Below, piece by piece: positions 15,208 through 47,471 of a DNA stretch of 64,000 nucleotides. The notes below the pieces were generated by a model. That model was given only the letters and a program-made list of their open reading frames with translations. It ran no database searches and was not told where the DNA came from. Source of the stretch: a virus. Both the position numbers and the translations under genes were made by a program. The stretch spans positions 1-64,000 of the IMG/VR virus record IMGVR_UViG_3300032242_000738; one strand, written 5' to 3'. Each line of letters begins with the position of its first letter. The first letter of the stretch is position 1.

Positions 15208-16182
15208 ATGTTTGATATTTTATCTATAATTCCCGGCAAAAAGAAAACAACAACTAGCGGATGGCATAGTTTTAATGCCATATGTTGTAGCCATTTAGGT
15301 CATAAACCCGATCGTAGAATGCGTGGTGGTATTAAGTTTGATGGACAAACTAATTGGTCAATGCATTGTTTCAACTGTGGGTATAAATGTAACTTTGTAT
15401 TAGGACGTAGTATCAGCTATAAAACTAAACAATTATTGTTATGGTGTGGTATTGATGATACACAAATAGGCAAGTGGAGTTTAGAAAGCCTACAACAAAA
15501 AGACTTATTAGATATTGTAATTCAAAAGAAAACTAAAATAAAAATTAAATTCAAAGATCATGAATTACCAGAAGGTATAATGCTTGATGGAAATAACCCA
15601 ACACACAAAGTGTACATTGATTATGTGCAAGCGAGGGGGATAAATTATAATGAGTATCCGTTCTTGATAACACCTAATCTACCCGGTCGTTATGCAAATA
15701 GAATAATCATCCCCTATACATATAAGAATAAAATCGTTGGTCACACCAGTAGATTCTTAGATAACAAAATACCTAAATATATTAATGAACAACAGCCTGG
15801 ATACGTGTTCAATATTGATATACAGAAACCTGAATGGCAGGTATGTATATTAACTGAAGGTATCTTTGATGCATTAAGCATTGATGGTATAGCAATTATG
15901 CATGATGACATAAGCAATGAACAAGCACAATTAATTGCATCATTAAATAAACAAATTATTGTTGTACCAGATAGAGATAAAACTGGGTTAAAGTTATGTG
16001 ATAGAGCTTTAGAGTTGGGCTATAGTGTTAGTTTACCTAATTGGGAACCGGGTATTAAGGACGTTAACGATGCTGTTGTGAGATATGGTAAGTTACCTAC
16101 ACTATTAAGTATCTTGCAAAATGCTACAATGAGTAAAATTAAAATAGAAATGCAGAGGAAGAAAATTGAGAAAACAATCTAA
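15208..16182 (+). CDS. 61: DNA primase gp61-like
   Basis: 324 residues. An N-terminal zinc-binding domain has CC..H at about residues 26-30 and HCFNCGYKC near 56. A TOPRIM core follows with LTEGIFDALSIDG and VVPDRDKTGLKL (acidic metal-binding residues intact), and DVNDAV near the end. It makes RNA primers with the gp41 helicase, whose gene overlaps its end by 17 bases. Length matches T4 gp61 (342). Confidence 0.88.
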   Translation: MFDILSIIPGKKKTTTSGWHSFNAICCSHLGHKPDRRMRGGIKFDGQTNWSMHCFNCGYKCNFVLGRSISYKTKQLLLWCGIDDTQIGKWSLESLQQKDLLDIVIQKKTKIKIKFKDHELPEGIMLDGNNPTHKVYIDYVQARGINYNEYPFLITPNLPGRYANRIIIPYTYKNKIVGHTSRFLDNKIPKYINEQQPGYVFNIDIQKPEWQVCILTEGIFDALSIDGIAIMHDDISNEQAQLIASLNKQIIVVPDRDKTGLKLCDRALELGYSVSLPNWEPGIKDVNDAVVRYGKLPTLLSILQNATMSKIKIEMQRKKIEKTI

Positions 16183-17605
16183 TAATAAAGAATATACCGT
16201 TGAAATGCAGAAGTTGTTTCTGCAAATGATGATTACCAACGCAGAACTTTATACTAGAGTTATGAACATTATGAACAGTGAAAACTTTGATAAGAGTTTA
16301 AGACCAGTTGCAGAATTGTTTAAAGAGCATACAACAAAGTATAGTGTACTGCCGGATAGCACACAAATTAAAGCAATTACTGGACAAGATATTGAAGTGA
16401 TACCTGAACTAGTACAAGGACATTATGATTGGTTCTTTGAGGAATTTGAAAGTTTTACTAGGCGACAGGAACTAGAACGCGCTATTCTTAAATCAGCCGA
16501 CTTACTAGAAAAGGGTGAGTTTGAACCTGTTGAGAAACTAATCAAGGATGCTGTACAAATCAGTTTACAGAAAGACATGGGTACAGACTATTTCTTAGAT
16601 CCAGCTGGTCGTATTAACAAATACTTCAATAGTGGTGGACAAGTAAGTACAGGTTGGCCCCAGCTTGACAAGATATTATATGGTGGCTTTAGTCGGGGTG
16701 AATTGAATATCTTTGCAGGTGGTAGTGGTTCAGGTAAGAGTTTAGTTATGATGAACATTGCATTGAATTGGTTGCAAACTGGGATGAGTGGTGTATATGT
16801 TACACTTGAATTGAGTGAAGAATTGACCAGTTTGCGTACAGATGCTATGTTAACTAATATGGGTACAAAAGACATTCGTAGAGATATTGGTTCAACTGAG
16901 CTTAAGGTTAAGATGGTTGGTAAGAAGTCAGGACAATATCGTGTTAAAGCATTACCCGCACAAAGCAATGTAAATGACATTCGTGCATATTTGAAAGAGG
17001 TACAGATACAAACAGGGATACGTATTGACTTTGTGATGATTGACTATTTGGATCTAGTTATGCCAGTTAGTGTTAAAGTTAATCCTAACGATCAATTTAT
17101 TAAAGACAAGTATGTTGCTGAAGAATTGCGTAATCTTGCAAAAGAGATGGGTATATTAATGGTAACAGCAAGTCAGTTGAATCGTACAGCGGTTGATGAA
17201 ATTGAGTTTGACCACAGTCATATTGCAGGTGGTATTAGTAAGATTAATACTGCTGATAATGTATTTGGTATCTTTACAAGTCGTAGTATGCGTGAACGTG
17301 GGAAGTATCAGATTCAATGTATGAAAAGTCGTAGTAGTACTGGTGTAGGACAGAAGATTGATTTAGATTATAATGTAGAAACTATGCGTATTAGTGATTC
17401 TGGTGGTGACGGTGAAGATAGTTATAGACCACAACCTAGTGCTACTGATATTATGAGTAAGTTAAAACCACAATCAGTATTACAATCTACAGAACCAATC
17501 ATTGACCAAACTACAGGAGAGATATTAGAACCTGAAAACAAGAAGGTTGTAGTAGATGTTCAGGGTTCAAAACTCAAAAGTTTACTTAATAGTTTAAAGA
17601 AATAA
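16166..17605 (+). CDS. 41: Replicative DNA helicase gp41 (DnaB-like)
   Basis: 479 residues (T4 gp41 475). The N-terminal helical domain spans ~1-140; the RecA-like motor follows with the Walker A GGSGSGKS near 185, MIDYLDLVMP (Walker B), TASQLNR and a DnaB-type arginine-finger region near FTSRSMRERGKY. It unwinds the fork 5' to 3' as a hexamer with the primase. It is translationally coupled to the primase. Confidence 0.92.
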   Translation: MRKQSNNKEYTVEMQKLFLQMMITNAELYTRVMNIMNSENFDKSLRPVAELFKEHTTKYSVLPDSTQIKAITGQDIEVIPELVQGHYDWFFEEFESFTRRQELERAILKSADLLEKGEFEPVEKLIKDAVQISLQKDMGTDYFLDPAGRINKYFNSGGQVSTGWPQLDKILYGGFSRGELNIFAGGSGSGKSLVMMNIALNWLQTGMSGVYVTLELSEELTSLRTDAMLTNMGTKDIRRDIGSTELKVKMVGKKSGQYRVKALPAQSNVNDIRAYLKEVQIQTGIRIDFVMIDYLDLVMPVSVKVNPNDQFIKDKYVAEELRNLAKEMGILMVTASQLNRTAVDEIEFDHSHIAGGISKINTADNVFGIFTSRSMRERGKYQIQCMKSRSSTGVGQKIDLDYNVETMRISDSGGDGEDSYRPQPSATDIMSKLKPQSVLQSTEPIIDQTTGEILEPENKKVVVDVQGSKLKSLLNSLKK

Positions 17606-17617
17606 AACCGTAATTTA

Positions 17618-17625
17618 GATAAATA
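17618..17625 (+). promoter_or_regulatory. Late-type promoter box GATAAATA
   Basis: GATAAATA 16 bases before the ATG at 17642, followed by AGGAAA as ribosome site. Confidence 0.6.
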
Positions 17626-17641
17626 CTATTAGGAAATCATT

Positions 17642-17896
17642 ATGCAAAAACAAACTCGCAGCCTTCTGCAGGAATTGGAAGCTATCGGCAATAATCGTGA
17701 TACAAGTCATGTTATTGAGAGTAGAGCCCACAACATTATTACCAGTGCTATAAATTTGCTAGAGATGATTAATAGGAATTATCCTAAAGAGCAAGCAGAG
17801 ATATTAGAGAGAAAATTGCTTGGTGCAATTAAATCACGTGATCAGGGTAAGTTTTCTAAATCTATAAAGAAGAACAGCGACAAAGAACAGTTATGA
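17642..17896 (+). CDS. Small helical hypothetical protein
   Basis: 84 residues, helical throughout (SRAHNIITSAINLLEMI, EQAEILERKLLGAIKSRDQGKF) with a lysine-rich end. Not recognised; similar small proteins are common near late genes of T4-type aquatic phages. It overlaps the next gene by four bases and shares its late promoter, so it may form a unit with the ligase-like protein. Confidence 0.65.
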   Translation: MQKQTRSLLQELEAIGNNRDTSHVIESRAHNIITSAINLLEMINRNYPKEQAEILERKLLGAIKSRDQGKFSKSIKKNSDKEQL

Positions 17897-19041
17897 ATTT
17901 ATCGGAAGCATTAGCCTTATTAAAATCTAAAATTGACAGTTTATCTATAAATGAAGATAAGGGTCATTTAGACCATCCAGAAGATTTAATCTTTTTAGGT
18001 GGAAGTGAGGGTGCTAATCGTGCCGTACAATCTATCGTTGCTACAGCTAAAAATCCAGCAACTGTTACAATTAAATGGGATGGATATCCTGCATTGATAT
18101 TTGGTCGTAATAGTTCAGGTAAGTTTAGTATTATGGACAAGCATATGTTCAATAAGAAAGATGGTACAGGACGTCAAGTATTCAGTCCAGAACAATTTGT
18201 ACAATATGACCAAGCACGTGGTGTAGAACGTGATAGTTTATGGCCTATTATTAATGAGATATGGCCTGGTTTAGAAAAAGCTAGTAAAGGTGCTAAAGGC
18301 TATTATTGGGGTGATTTGTTGTTCCATCAACCCTTAAAAGACCAAAATGGTAGTTATGTTTTTAAAGCTAATCCTAATGGCATTACTTATAAAGTAGATA
18401 GCAATAGTCCAATAGGACAACTGATAGGTGGAAAACGTGCTGGTATTGCAGTACATCAGTATATTGATCCTAATGCAATGACTACGGATGAAGCAACTAC
18501 ATTGAATGGAAATATAGGACAATTAAAGAATAATAGTGATGTAGCCATAGTTCCTAGTGCTATGCCAACAGCTCCTAAGCTTGCAGTAGATAATACATTA
18601 GTAAAAAATGCACAGAATGCTATAAAGAAATATGGTCCTGCAGTAGACCAATTGATGAATAGTGCACCTCAAGCACGTAATACGTTTAATCAATTGTTTA
18701 CTGTATATATTAACAAGAAGATTGTTGCAGGGGATTTGAACAATTTACTGGCTGGCTTTATGGATTTTGTACAGAATAGGCCAATGACTGATAGAATGAA
18801 AGCAAAGATAATTGAACATTTGCAAGCCAATGAAGCTGGACTAGTTGGTGCGTTTACTATCTGGAGTGAGATTTATAAACTAAAAATGTCATTGGTTAGT
18901 CAGCTTAATAAAGCCGCAGAAGTTAGTCCTGTTAAAGGATATTTACAAGATGGAACCGAGACACATGAAGGTTTTGTGGCAAATGGCTTAAAATTTGTGG
19001 ATAGAATGGGTTTCAGCCGTCAGAATTTAGCTGGAAGATAA
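17893..19041 (+). CDS. Nucleotidyltransferase/ligase-like protein (DUF6267-type)
   Basis: 382 residues. Residues 59-67 (TIKWDGYPA) match motif I of covalent nucleotidyltransferases (KxDG; K61 would carry the AMP). GYYWGDLLF near 138 sits where motif III is expected (with Asp in place of Glu), and HEGFV near 358 matches motif IV. The ending GFSRQNLAGR could replace motif V, but its lysine is not evident. I recall similar phage proteins filed as DUF6267. Expressed from a late promoter, so a role in DNA ends or virion assembly is possible. Enzymatic activity is inferred. Confidence 0.55.
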   Translation: MNLSEALALLKSKIDSLSINEDKGHLDHPEDLIFLGGSEGANRAVQSIVATAKNPATVTIKWDGYPALIFGRNSSGKFSIMDKHMFNKKDGTGRQVFSPEQFVQYDQARGVERDSLWPIINEIWPGLEKASKGAKGYYWGDLLFHQPLKDQNGSYVFKANPNGITYKVDSNSPIGQLIGGKRAGIAVHQYIDPNAMTTDEATTLNGNIGQLKNNSDVAIVPSAMPTAPKLAVDNTLVKNAQNAIKKYGPAVDQLMNSAPQARNTFNQLFTVYINKKIVAGDLNNLLAGFMDFVQNRPMTDRMKAKIIEHLQANEAGLVGAFTIWSEIYKLKMSLVSQLNKAAEVSPVKGYLQDGTETHEGFVANGLKFVDRMGFSRQNLAGR

Positions 19042-20520: not shown

Positions 20521-20528
20521 GATAAATA
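20521..20528 (+). promoter_or_regulatory. Late-type promoter box GATAAATA
   Basis: GATAAATA 26 bases before the ATG at 20555, in the short gap between genes. Confidence 0.65.
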
Positions 20529-21613: not shown

Positions 21614-21940
21614 ATGATTACGATCACCGAAAAAGCTTCCAATAAAATAAAACAAATAATAACAAAACGTGGTAAGGGTCTAGGAATACGAATAGGCGTC
21701 AAGACCACAGGTTGTAGTGGTTTGGCATATGTATTAGAATATGTTGATGAATATAGTTATGATGAATCTACCATAAATTATGCACAAGATACATTTATTG
21801 TGTTAGTGGATAAGAAGCATGATGTATATTTAAAGAACATGATTGTAGATTATGTGCGTAATGGACTAAATGAAGGTTTTGAGTTCAGCAACCCAAATGA
21901 ACGTGACCGATGTGGTTGCGGAGAGAGCTTTAGAGTTTAA
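21614..21940 (+). CDS. iscA: IscA/HesB-type iron-sulfur carrier
   Basis: 108 residues, the usual A-type carrier length. The three conserved cysteines are present: C34 in TTGCSGLAY and C100 and C102 in CGCGESF. A-type carriers hold and pass Fe-S clusters to apo-proteins. In phages this is an auxiliary metabolic gene; comparable copies are known from some aquatic phages. It follows the preceding gene by one base and so is in the late transcript. Host-derived origin is likely by family, but no composition shift is obvious. Confidence 0.88.
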   Translation: MITITEKASNKIKQIITKRGKGLGIRIGVKTTGCSGLAYVLEYVDEYSYDESTINYAQDTFIVLVDKKHDVYLKNMIVDYVRNGLNEGFEFSNPNERDRCGCGESFRV

Positions 21941-22679: not shown

Positions 22680-22687
22680 GATAAATA
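22680..22687 (+). promoter_or_regulatory. Late-type promoter box GATAAATA
   Basis: GATAAATA followed directly by AGTATAAATC; upstream of the fibre gene at 22716, which lacks a clear Shine-Dalgarno. Confidence 0.6.
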
Positions 22688-22715: not shown

Positions 22716-24542
22716 ATGGCCATTATACAGATATCTAAAATCCAACAACGTTCAGGTAACCTTGTAGACCTGCCACAATTAGACCAAGCTCAATTGGGCT
22801 GGGCCAATGATGCTAAACGTCTTTTTATAGGAACTACTAGTCCTAATCCAAATGAAAATGTTGAAGTATTAACAGCATATTCAACTATTACCTTTAGTCA
22901 AATTTCAGGTGGTGAGGGTAATTTAAACATCTCTAATTCTCAGAATGGGCAAATATTAACTTATGTTAGTAGTACCGATACCTGGGAAAACTATACAGGA
23001 AATTCTGTCCAACTAGGTGGACATAAACTTCAGCTTGGTAATGTAGCAAATATATCCATGACCGGTGGTGCCATTGGATATGTATTAGAAACAGACGGAT
23101 TGGGTAATCTAAGTTGGACATCTAAATCAACAATTACTGCATATATCAGTGCAGTATCAAAAGCTAATCCTGGGGTAGTAACTACCACAGTTCCTAATTT
23201 CTTTACAGCCGGTGCATTAGTAACCATTACCGATGTTGTTGGTATGACTCAGCTTAATGGTAACAGTTATTATGCGAAGATATTAACATCTAATACGTTC
23301 TCATTATATTCTGATTCTGGGTTAACTACGCCGGTTGATACAAGTGGCTATACTACATATACTAGTGGTGGTAGAGTAATTTCTTCAGTAGGAGGATCTG
23401 GATCAAGTGCGGCAGCTGGTAGTAATACCACAGTACAATTTAATGATAACAATGTTCTTCAAGGTAGTGCAGGATTTACCTTTAATAAACTATCAGGAGT
23501 TTTAACAGCACCAAATCTTGCAGGTGATGGCGGTAGATTATCAAATATTGCTGGTGCTAATATTACAGGTTCAATACCTCTTGCTACATATGCAACAACT
23601 GCAAATAGTGTAGCTGGTGCTAATGTTTCAGGTGCAGTAGCATACGCAACAACAGCTAATAATGTAGCCGGTGCTAATGTGTCAGGTCAAGTCAGTTATG
23701 CGGCTGTAGCCAATAGTGTAGCAGGAGCCAATGTTTCAGGTACAGTAGGTCTTGCTACATATGCAACAACTGCAAATAGTGTTGCTGGCGCTAATATAAG
23801 CGGCGCTGTAGGTCTTGCTACATATGCGACAACAGCTAATAGTGTAGCCGGTGCTAATGTTTCTGGTGCAGTCAGTTATGCAACAACAGCTAATAGTGTA
23901 GCAGGTGCTAATGTTTCTGGTGCAGTTAGTTATGCAACAACCGCTAATAGTGTAGCAGGTGCGAATGTAAGTGGTACTGTAAGTAGTGCAACTACAGCAG
24001 GTACTGTAACAACCGCGGCACAGCCAAATATCACAAGTGTTGGTACATTAACTTCATTAAATGTAAGTGGTCAAATAACGAATAATAATATTACAACGGG
24101 TGCTAGTTCAACACCGGGCAATCTTACTGGTGCTTGGACATTAAGTAGCGGTTCAACACTACAAGCCACATATGCTGACTTAGCAGAATATTATGAATCT
24201 GATAATATCTATGAACCAGGTACTGTATTAGCATTTGGTGGTGATAAAGAAGTTACCATAGCAGAAGATGCCACTACAAAAGTTGCAGGTATTGTTTCTA
24301 CCAATCCAGCATATGTAATGAATAGTGCATGTGAAGGTGAACATATTGTAGCATTAGCATTACAAGGTCGTGTTCCGTGTAAAGTACGTGGAAATATTAA
24401 AAAGGGTGATATGTTAATAAGTGCAGGATATGGCTTTGCTCGTCCAGCATCATTCCCTGTATTGGGTACAGTCATCGGTAAATCATTAGAAAACTTTGAT
24501 GGTGTAGAAGGTATCATTGAAGTAGCAGTCGGCAGACTTTAA
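22716..24542 (+). CDS. Repeat-containing tail fibre protein
   Basis: 608 residues. The N-terminal ~45 residues (IQISKIQQRSGNLVDLPQLDQAQLGWAND) look like a fibre attachment segment. A module near 170-215 has LNGNSYYAKILTSNTFSLY. Residues ~270-430 contain about eight copies of a ~17-residue repeat (YATTANSVAGANVSGAV) likely forming a trimeric beta fibre. The C-terminal domain (~487-608, ADLAEYYESD, VAGIVSTNPAYVMN) resembles peptidase-G2-like autocleavage/chaperone modules. Repeats and C-terminus are shared with the 2639-residue protein at 47492. Confidence 0.78.
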   Translation: MAIIQISKIQQRSGNLVDLPQLDQAQLGWANDAKRLFIGTTSPNPNENVEVLTAYSTITFSQISGGEGNLNISNSQNGQILTYVSSTDTWENYTGNSVQLGGHKLQLGNVANISMTGGAIGYVLETDGLGNLSWTSKSTITAYISAVSKANPGVVTTTVPNFFTAGALVTITDVVGMTQLNGNSYYAKILTSNTFSLYSDSGLTTPVDTSGYTTYTSGGRVISSVGGSGSSAAAGSNTTVQFNDNNVLQGSAGFTFNKLSGVLTAPNLAGDGGRLSNIAGANITGSIPLATYATTANSVAGANVSGAVAYATTANNVAGANVSGQVSYAAVANSVAGANVSGTVGLATYATTANSVAGANISGAVGLATYATTANSVAGANVSGAVSYATTANSVAGANVSGAVSYATTANSVAGANVSGTVSSATTAGTVTTAAQPNITSVGTLTSLNVSGQITNNNITTGASSTPGNLTGAWTLSSGSTLQATYADLAEYYESDNIYEPGTVLAFGGDKEVTIAEDATTKVAGIVSTNPAYVMNSACEGEHIVALALQGRVPCKVRGNIKKGDMLISAGYGFARPASFPVLGTVIGKSLENFDGVEGIIEVAVGRL

Positions 24543-32570: not shown

Positions 32571-32578
32571 GATAAATA
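32571..32578 (+). promoter_or_regulatory. Late-type promoter box GATAAATA
   Basis: GATAAATA in the context GTTTCCTGATAAATA, identical over 15 bases to the box at 33593. Confidence 0.65.
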
Positions 32579-33592: not shown

Positions 33593-33600
33593 GATAAATA
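33593..33600 (+). promoter_or_regulatory. Late-type promoter box GATAAATA
   Basis: GATAAATA preceded by GTTTCCT, 20 bases before the gp13 ATG at 33621. Confidence 0.65.
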
Positions 33601-40339: not shown

Positions 40340-40347
40340 GATAAATA
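40340..40347 (+). promoter_or_regulatory. Late-type promoter box GATAAATA before the tube gene
   Basis: GATAAATA with AGGAG at 40356-40360 six bases before the ATG at 40367. Confidence 0.7.
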
Positions 40348-43029: not shown

Positions 43030-43515
43030 ATGACAAAAAAATTAACCGAATTGTTTGAGCTACCACAAGATGAGATTGACAGCTTGCATGTTCCTATTCC
43101 GGAAAATGCCAATGAAATAACAAGTGATGCATTAAGTGCGTTAGAAAAGATTGACCAAGCATTGCCACAAGTACGTGGATTAGATGCAAGTGATAGTGAG
43201 TTAGATGAATTAGCACAGATGGCTGTAGATAGTTTTAAGGATCTAAGTGATTTGGGTATGCAAGTTGATAGTAGATTTAGTAGTGAGATTTTTAGTGTTG
43301 CTAGTAATATGTTAGGACATGCTATTACAGCAAAGACTGCTAAATTAAATAAGAAGTTAAAGATGATTGATTTACAGCTTAAGAAAGCACAATTAGACCA
43401 GAAATTATCTAGTAAAGCAGAAGAAATAGAGAACACACCAGTTGGTGAAGGTAAAGCATTAGACCGTAATGAATTATTGAAGATGTTGGCTAATAAAGAA
43501 CCGTCTGATAAATAA
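43030..43515 (+). CDS. Probable small terminase subunit gp16-like
   Basis: 161 residues (T4 gp16 164). N-terminal LTELFELPQDEI, then a helical core ELDELAQMAVDSFKDLSDLGMQVDSRFSSEIFSVASNML and a coiled coil TAKTAKLNKKLKMIDLQLKKAQLDQKL, with an acidic/flexible C-terminus; this is the layout of T4-type small terminases. gp16 recognises phage DNA and activates gp17. No gp17 lies in this window, so the call rests on layout and position only. Confidence 0.5.
   Translation: MTKKLTELFELPQDEIDSLHVPIPENANEITSDALSALEKIDQALPQVRGLDASDSELDELAQMAVDSFKDLSDLGMQVDSRFSSEIFSVASNMLGHAITAKTAKLNKKLKMIDLQLKKAQLDQKLSSKAEEIENTPVGEGKALDRNELLKMLANKEPSDK
43507..43514 (+). promoter_or_regulatory. Late-type promoter box GATAAATA
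   Basis: GATAAATA overlapping the stop codon of the gp16-like gene, before the propeller-like gene at 43534. Confidence 0.6.
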
Positions 43516-47463: not shown

Positions 47464-47471
47464 GATAAATA
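47464..47471 (+). promoter_or_regulatory. Late-type promoter box GATAAATA
   Basis: GATAAATA immediately followed by CTAAATA, 20 bases before the giant fibre ATG at 47492. Confidence 0.65.

Follow-up and report, generated by a model that had tools for sequence, protein, structure and literature searches.

DUF6267, a predicted ligase-fold nucleotidyltransferase and possible core of the ligase that T4-like cyanophages appear to lack

Introduction

How do T4-like phages without a recognizable DNA ligase seal their DNA, and could a gene family with no assigned function take part? T4-like cyanophages are common ocean viruses. As stated in an excerpt of PMC2984593, homologues of g30 were not found in cyanomyoviruses and an RNase H homologue was found only in S-PM2, so that the sealing of the lagging strand was left open. 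The question arises here from one gene in a 64,000-nucleotide stretch of viral DNA (hereafter the window), which is part of an 84,219-base virus record (IMGVR_UViG_3300032242_000738) with genes of the large T4-like myophage type, among them those for UvsX, helicases, a primase, a DnaB-like helicase and a tail sheath. Megablast of its first 25 kb against INPHARED returned one match, at query bases 1286-1703, to Xanthomonas phage XbC2. A first-pass annotation made from the sequence had read the gene as an atypical ligase-fold enzyme, made late and possibly tied to head or DNA-end processing. Here we weigh that reading against the predicted fold, the conserved residues and the genomic company of the family, and arrive at a candidate for the missing ligase core.

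The gene and its family

The open reading frame is real and runs exactly as first annotated, from an ATG at 17893 to a stop that ends at 19041, encoding 382 amino acids:

17893 to 19041, + strand: DUF6267 gene, predicted covalent nucleotidyltransferase with a ligase fold, from PF19782, an AlphaFold2 model and its structural neighbours

The sole Pfam match of the protein at an E-value cut-off of 0.1 is DUF6267 (PF19782, E 6.1e-40), and its score of 138.2 bits against a curated cut-off of 27 makes it a member of that family; it also matches PHROG 455 (E 1.2e-32). DUF6267 is widespread, with 471 INPHARED records, mostly of cyanophages, recovered by one tblastn query (a count without a denominator), and a scan with the Vibrio member yielded no confirmed relatives. 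In the literature searched, no paper named DUF6267 or "cytitidyltransferase", and among the matches listed, titles and abstract openings gave no function for the family.

Conserved motifs

Six short stretches of the gene, listed in their order along the protein, recall the motifs of covalent nucleotidyltransferases or stand out by their conservation:

17965 to 17985, + strand: N-terminal HLDHPED (residues 25-31, consensus HLEHLED), with H25, H28, E30 and D31 invariant
18067 to 18093, + strand: motif I, TIKWDGYPA (residues 59-67), with K61, D63, G64 and P66 invariant
18139 to 18153, + strand: KHMFN (residues 83-87), at the motif Ia position, with K83 and F86 invariant
18310 to 18321, + strand: GDLL (residues 140-143), at the motif III position, with G140, D141 and L142 invariant
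18964 to 18978, + strand: motif IV, HEGFV (residues 358-362), with E359, G360 and V362 invariant
18991 to 19005, + strand: motif V, KFVDR (residues 367-371), with K367 invariant and V369 in place of the second lysine

Conservation was read from alignment A1, which comprises the window protein and 42 relatives (n = 43) down to 23% identity with it and was built with no motif filter, the relatives having been retrieved through six short peptide patterns per query, a few of which span K61 or K367. Invariant in A1 are H25-x-x-H28-x-E30-D31, then K61, W62, D63, G64, P66, K83, F86, G140, D141 and L142, and further on H188, E359, G360, V362, K367, D370 and R371. K61, the presumed nucleophile, is encoded at 18073-18075, and KHMFN would be motif Ia by its spacing. 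The TIKWDGYPA, GYYWGDLLF (residues 136-144, a strand in the model that GDLL closes) and HEGFV stretches picked out at first pass all lie at their given positions and, judged from sequence, are more than chance resemblances. The motif V lysine, which had been called not evident, is in fact present: K367, in LKFVDR, lies 8 residues past E359 and is invariant in all 43 sequences, the spacing being about 12 in relatives and a hairpin being shorter in the window's clade.

The same residues persist in larger samples. KxDGxP is found in 405 of 416 family ORFs, the other 11 being ten cut at the locus end and one that is frame-disrupted. E359 and K367 recur in 60 of 61 representatives, the remaining one having a gap; because the 401 sequences from which this table was drawn had been required to match K[WYF]DGxP[AS], the filter itself imposed the invariance of K61, D63, G64 and P66 there, A1 being unfiltered. 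That pattern dropped 12 of the 416 ORFs, namely the ten cut at the locus end, L298 with its disrupted frame and L313 with KIDG, a variant also carried by the P-SSM2 and S-CREM2 members. K61, E359 and K367 are conserved in a further alignment, A2.

Predicted fold and structural neighbours

Comparison at the sequence level was uninformative: phmmer and the A1 profile found no meaningful match in the PDB, and HHalign of the 61 DUF6267 representatives against 29 T4-Rnl2-type sequences produced a wrong, insignificant pairing, for which reasons sequence-only homology to ligases was dropped. Nor did the window protein match PF01068 (T4 gp30-type ATP-dependent DNA ligase) or PF09414 (Rnl2-type RNA ligase, which the T4 Rnl2 control did match), and PF01653 (LigA adenylation) was absent from it as well as from 15 records.

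Structure prediction is more telling. We compared AlphaFold2 models of the window protein (pLDDT 85.6) and of the marine relative L160 (pLDDT 86.2, built from a broader alignment that overlaps A1) with solved structures, by running VIA-align on Foldseek's first 1000 chains. In both models ranks 1-49 are all polynucleotide ligases and rank 50 is unrelated, with the matched chain in non-homologous end-joining complexes assumed to be ligase IV. The window model scores Z 8.0 with the Naegleria RNA ligase, 6.7 with T4 Rnl2 and 6.4 with TbREL1, and the L160 model 8.0 with the Naegleria enzyme, 7.4 with TbREL1, 6.8 with T4 Rnl1, 5.4 with T4 DNA ligase (6dt1) and 5.3 with the Chlorella virus ligase, values which at 8 or below are middling by the tool's own note and are tied wherever they differ by less than 1. 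The Naegleria superposition has an rmsd of 3.8-3.9 over about 180 residues.

The alignment to T4 Rnl2 (1s68, Z 6.7) pairs model residues 24-376 with Rnl2 residues 6-233. Since model residue 24 is aligned to Rnl2 residue 6, the offset would bring HLDHPED near the SLEN stretch of Rnl2, and the range ends would likewise put K367 at or beside Rnl2 K225, with V369 at or beside K227.

Plain Foldseek found no PDB match under E 0.001 (best E 0.47), with an archaeal RNA ligase at rank 1 and CorA chains mixed in; against predicted viral structures, the L160 model recovered its own family, and outside it the first protein with a ligase name was a phage Atu_ph07 RNA ligase (E 1.4e-3, TM 0.25). The weak Foldseek score against the PDB may be due to a helical stretch that interrupts the fold before motif IV:

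18592 to 18918, + strand: helical stretch of the model (residues 234-342), between the half that holds motif III and motif IV

In the window model its helices run from H234-256 to H314-342. The stretch is much reduced in the P-SSM2 (about 290 aa) and S-CREM2 (about 295 aa) members, which retain K-x-D-G-x-P, EG[YF]V and KLVDR.

We accept the fold because, in both models, every one of the 49 rows belongs to a single superfamily and the row below them is unrelated, and because the conserved residues follow one another in motif order. The hallmarks of the superfamily that were sought are found in the fold itself, the motif I KxDG lysine, the motif IV glutamate and the motif V lysine. K-x-K of motif V is not found in the window protein, which has K367-F-V369, and a C-terminal OB domain is absent, with only 11 residues past R371. 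The protein is thus very probably a ligase-type covalent nucleotidyltransferase, and the first-pass idea of an atypical ligase-fold enzyme has held up on the points that could have undone it, the fold being ligase-like and K61 invariant in 43 of 43 sequences. What was computed is the fold and its catalytic residues; cofactor, acceptor and sealing are inferred from them. That the protein acts on polynucleotide ends is a somewhat favoured reading, and a DNA rather than an RNA substrate is a tentative one that falls a little short of even.

DNA or RNA ends?

Might the protein instead be an RNA ligase of the Rnl1 or Rnl2 kind, sealing RNA such as tRNA cut by host anticodon nucleases and unrelated to DNA replication? 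The top structural matches of both models (the Naegleria ligase, Rnl2, REL1, Trl1 and Rnl1) do stand above the DNA ligases, although rows with a Z difference below 1 are tied, and the N-terminal HLEH stretch falls near Rnl2 SLEN by offset. Moreover, PF09414 occurs in only 2 of 15 records (T4 and Vibrio 2.275), which leaves the RNA-ligase niche open in most. The genomic context speaks against this alternative. Several marine copies of DUF6267 follow the replication cluster: the gene comes after the polymerase-uvsX-gp41-mazG cluster in P-TIM40, S-PM2, P-HM1 and S-SSM2, and after genes for RecA, primase and a DnaB-like helicase in Melnitz-2. It lies away from that cluster in S-CREM2 and Vibrio 2.275. 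DUF6267 further co-occurs with a ligase-type DNA-binding domain that adjoins RNase H in four phages, as described below, and no polynucleotide kinase or tRNA-repair gene adjoins it among the named features of six annotated loci. On balance we regard an RNA ligase as unlikely.

DUF6433 and the missing ligase

That DNA-binding domain has a history of its own. According to an excerpt of PMC7824862, most subgroup 2.1 jumbo phages are without a known ligase and carry a stand-alone ligase DNA-binding domain, AAX44695.1, which was proposed as able to recruit host ligase. AAX44695.1 is gene 317 of the Prochlorococcus phage P-SSM2, and its relatives in S-PM2 and S-SSM2 are DUF6433 (PF20025); DUF6267, a different protein, is therefore ruled out as the helical domain of that paper. 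A DUF6433 profile aligned by HHalign with the N-terminal parts of five phage ligases scored 34 (probability 62%, 119 columns), whereas 30 shuffles never exceeded 14.9 and two decoys scored about 14. The gene adjoins RNase H in S-PM2, Cr30, phiN3 and S-CREM2; AAX44695.1 of P-SSM2 has no annotated RNase H next to it.

Are the two families found together? DUF6433 is present in 10 of 16 records; PF01068 is found in 0 of these 10, PF01653 is absent from the nine of them tested, and DUF6267 is present in all 10, nine of which had been preselected for DUF6267 and four of which are IMG/VR records of unrated completeness. S-CREM2 is a phage that encodes both. Across phages, one tblastn tally each gave 471 records for DUF6267 and 485 for DUF6433, tallies rather than records being compared. 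It is these ten records, with DUF6267 and DUF6433 and no PF01068, that make DUF6267 a candidate for the ligase core otherwise missing from T4-like cyanophages.

The pairing is not strict. The six records without DUF6433 are T4, G001, Vibrio 2.275, G000, G002 and G003, and DUF6267 thus occurs alone in Vibrio 2.275 and G000-G003. Judged by eye, the N-terminal domain in the PF01068 ligases of T4, G001 and Vibrio 2.275 is of the T4 type. Such a ligase is also encoded in three of the 17 DUF6267 records (G001, Vibrio 2.275 and DLP6), by which a strict replacement of gp30 is ruled out. G001, a 348,701-base record, bears directly on the window, since its protein (L011) is 93% identical to the window's and an ordinary ligase is present as well. 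G000, G002 and G003 gave no PF01068 match, which carries little weight in records of 84, 230 and 111 kb of unrated completeness. Conversely, Cr30 and phiN3 have DUF6433 and no DUF6267, together with a PF01068 ligase that by eye is without the T4-type N-terminus, which is what one would predict were DUF6433 to act in trans for a ligase core.

Three of these DUF6433 genes merit a remark of their own. In Cr30 (Caulobacter; L475:1507-1938) and phiN3 (Sinorhizobium; L476:2498-3007), DUF6433 stands beside RNase H, and together with the PF01068 ligase it could possibly make up an ordinary-type DNA ligase divided between two genes. In S-CREM2, the DUF6433 protein (167 aa, L498:44930-45433) is annotated "DNA ligase" despite being just a domain-sized relative of the ligase N-terminus.

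A HIGH-type nucleotidyltransferase as neighbour

Outside the window's clade, DUF6267 has a conspicuous neighbour that a plain DNA ligase does not need, and this is evidence against the DNA-ligase reading. Of 245 loci, which are related sequences and not independent events, 236 have a HIGH-type (NMNAT-like) nucleotidyltransferase that is fused to DUF6267 or lies no more than 3 kb downstream of it (69/69, 52/52, 50/54, 56/57 and 9/13 in five groups, the fifth consisting of bacterial or MAG contigs); the same test upstream gave 0 of 306. In S-PM2 the two are fused in a 591-aa protein. PF01467 is present in all 17 DUF6267 records tested, and the closest relatives of the HIGH profile are nicotinate/NMN adenylyltransferases, its best PDB match being a nicotinate-nucleotide adenylyltransferase (E 6.5e-4). 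The presence of a HIGH gene in a genome was dropped as a sign of partnership, since KVP40, Cr30 and phiN3 have one without DUF6267; adjacency alone is informative.

Does the pair then act together, with a small molecule or a cofactor as substrate (NAD+-like, or an NDP-conjugate), or does DUF6267 carry out a capping-type transfer to a target other than a nick? The fusion and downstream placement, the match to nicotinate-nucleotide adenylyltransferase and the finding of HIGH proteins in virion preparations would all suit such a role: in an excerpt of PMC3037559 the HIGH protein T4-GC190 is reported as detected in S-SM1 virions, and in one of PMC10665884 the S-CREM2 HIGH protein ORF154 is placed in the virion preparation, co-purification being allowed for by the authors. 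This role is at odds with the window's freshwater clade, where adjacency is 0 of 62. In the window's genome, the HIGH gene is about 54 kb off (L249:8541-9530), and 47-57 kb separate DUF6267 from the nearest PF01467 match in G000-G003; a long distance likewise lies between the two genes in Vibrio 2.275, P-SSM2 and S-CREM2. HIGH genes without DUF6267 and structural neighbours that are end-joining ligases weigh against it too, and we consider a joint role of this kind rather improbable. More improbable still is a further scheme: a split DNA ligase of T4-like marine phages, with a DUF6267 core and DUF6433 in trans, in which the HIGH protein, as NMN adenylyltransferase, would regenerate NAD+ from NMN, forming a new NAD+-using, self-recycling lineage with a late freshwater sister form beside an ordinary ligase.

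Late expression in the window's clade

The first-pass annotation had the gene expressed late. Upstream of it stand two replication genes, then a promoter-like box and a short gene that overlaps its start by 4 nt:

15208 to 16182, + strand: DNA primase, upstream context (PHROG 47, E 1.6e-33)
16166 to 17605, + strand: DnaB-like replicative helicase, upstream context (PHROG 19, E 4.3e-67)
17618 to 17625, + strand: GATAAATA, a late-promoter-like box before the two-gene unit, from the strand bias and placement of ATAAATA
17642 to 17896, + strand: 84-aa gene (PHROG 11854 "virion structural protein", E 6e-17)

The box lies about 274 nt 5' of the DUF6267 start, and its ATAAATA starts 23 nt ahead of the 84-aa gene, relatives of which are present in 77 of 81 freshwater-group loci. 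In the window ATAAATA has 21 copies on the + strand and 3 on the − strand; by a simple greedy ORF model, 16 of the 21 begin 12-91 nt before a + strand gene and 12 fall in intergenic sequence, which makes up 4.3% of the window. The bias recurs in five groups of relatives' loci (+:− ratios of 279:68, 305:1, 139:11, 184:4 and 156:2). ATAAATA stands within 350 nt 5' of DUF6267 in 49 of 75 freshwater-group loci, but in the other groups late boxes within 60 nt of its start are uncommon or lacking (0/72, 0/73, 3/43, 23/70 and 4/22 loci). TATAAATA, the T4 late promoter in its exact form, shows no enrichment in the window, with 4 copies against 13.65 expected; only ATAAATA, mostly as GATAAATA, is strand-biased and placed ahead of genes. 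Further GATAAATA boxes occur at 20521-20528, 22680-22687, 32571-32578, 33593-33600, 40340-40347, 43507-43514, 47464-47471 and elsewhere, and the boxes of the window stand some 20-40 nt ahead of + strand genes. GATAAATA is thus probably the late promoter of this phage, and late expression of DUF6267 in the window's clade is plausible; it fits the box before the overlapping gene, a promoter-like motif being its sole basis.

The late-promoter-like box and an overlapping gene that matches a virion structural protein raise the alternative that the fold was retained while catalysis was lost or became irrelevant, the protein serving as a late virion or scaffold component. This we hold to be highly improbable: the catalytic K61, E359 and K367 are invariant, and the S-CREM2 member, gp87, is missing from the virion proteome of 52 proteins in the excerpted part of PMC10665884. 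The idea of a virion protein was set aside on that absence, although a single mass-spectrometry list is weak evidence, and the suggested tie to head or DNA-end processing stays unproven.

Other genes noticed

Three other genes caught our attention. Within the window, a 608-aa protein (22716-24542) with many ATTANSVAGANVSG-type repeats is fibre-like by eye, and a 108-aa protein (21614-21940) with spaced cysteines (CSG ... CGCG) presumably resembles an A-type iron-sulfur carrier (IscA/SufA), again by eye. Beyond the window, in the same record, a 727-aa protein (L249:13986-16169) has an N-terminus that matches PHROG 36119 and, by eye, resembles a nucleotidyltransferase of the Pol-beta type; its S-CREM2 relative, gp156, matches PF01909 (E 3.4e-4) and is listed in the virion proteome as excerpted from PMC10665884.

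A proposed role

Taken as a whole, the explanation we find best is a covalent nucleotidyltransferase that would be the core of a marine DNA ligase and would exist in a late form in the window's lineage, a composite reading whose chances appear evenly balanced. Attack by K61 on the alpha phosphate of its nucleotide cofactor, which is probably ATP, would give a lysyl-NMP; the nucleotide would next be handed to a 5'-phosphate end, and this end would be sealed. In marine T4-like phages, DUF6267 would be the catalytic core of a polynucleotide ligase acting on phage DNA in place of T4 gp30, with the ligase-type DNA-binding domain (DUF6433) provided by another gene. The window's freshwater lineage probably has a late-made version, which may be specialised in repairing ends or nicks at a late stage of infection; the role in this clade is less certain because its close relative (L011, in G001) has an ordinary ligase.

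With the family placed in the ligase fold, a single purified protein and a single lysine mutant are enough to put the cyanophage sealing question to a direct test. Confirmation would add a lineage of ligases that has a helical insert, lacks an OB domain and may rely on a DNA-binding domain in trans.

Comparison with known systems

DUF6267/PHROG 455, the family to which the window protein belongs, is a Pfam family of unknown function, within which the window's clade differs from the rest in having KWDGYP for KWDGAP and YYWGDLL for VLQGDLL or similar, and in the HIGH gene not being adjacent. DUF6433 (PF20025), whose phage tally is close to that of DUF6267, is a separate gene and not the catalytic fold. 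Among characterized enzymes, those of the Rnl2 type (T4 Rnl2, Naegleria NgrRnl and TbREL1) provide the closest solved folds and share the motif order; in contrast to them, the window protein has a helical insert of about 110 residues ahead of motif IV, is without the Rnl2 C-terminal domain, reads K-x-V rather than K-x-K in motif V and has no match to them at the sequence level. As for T4 gp30 and other PF01068 ligases, DUF6267 differs in having no in-cis DNA-binding domain, OB domain or PF01068 match, and shares with them the nucleotidyltransferase fold itself (6dt1, Z 5.4).
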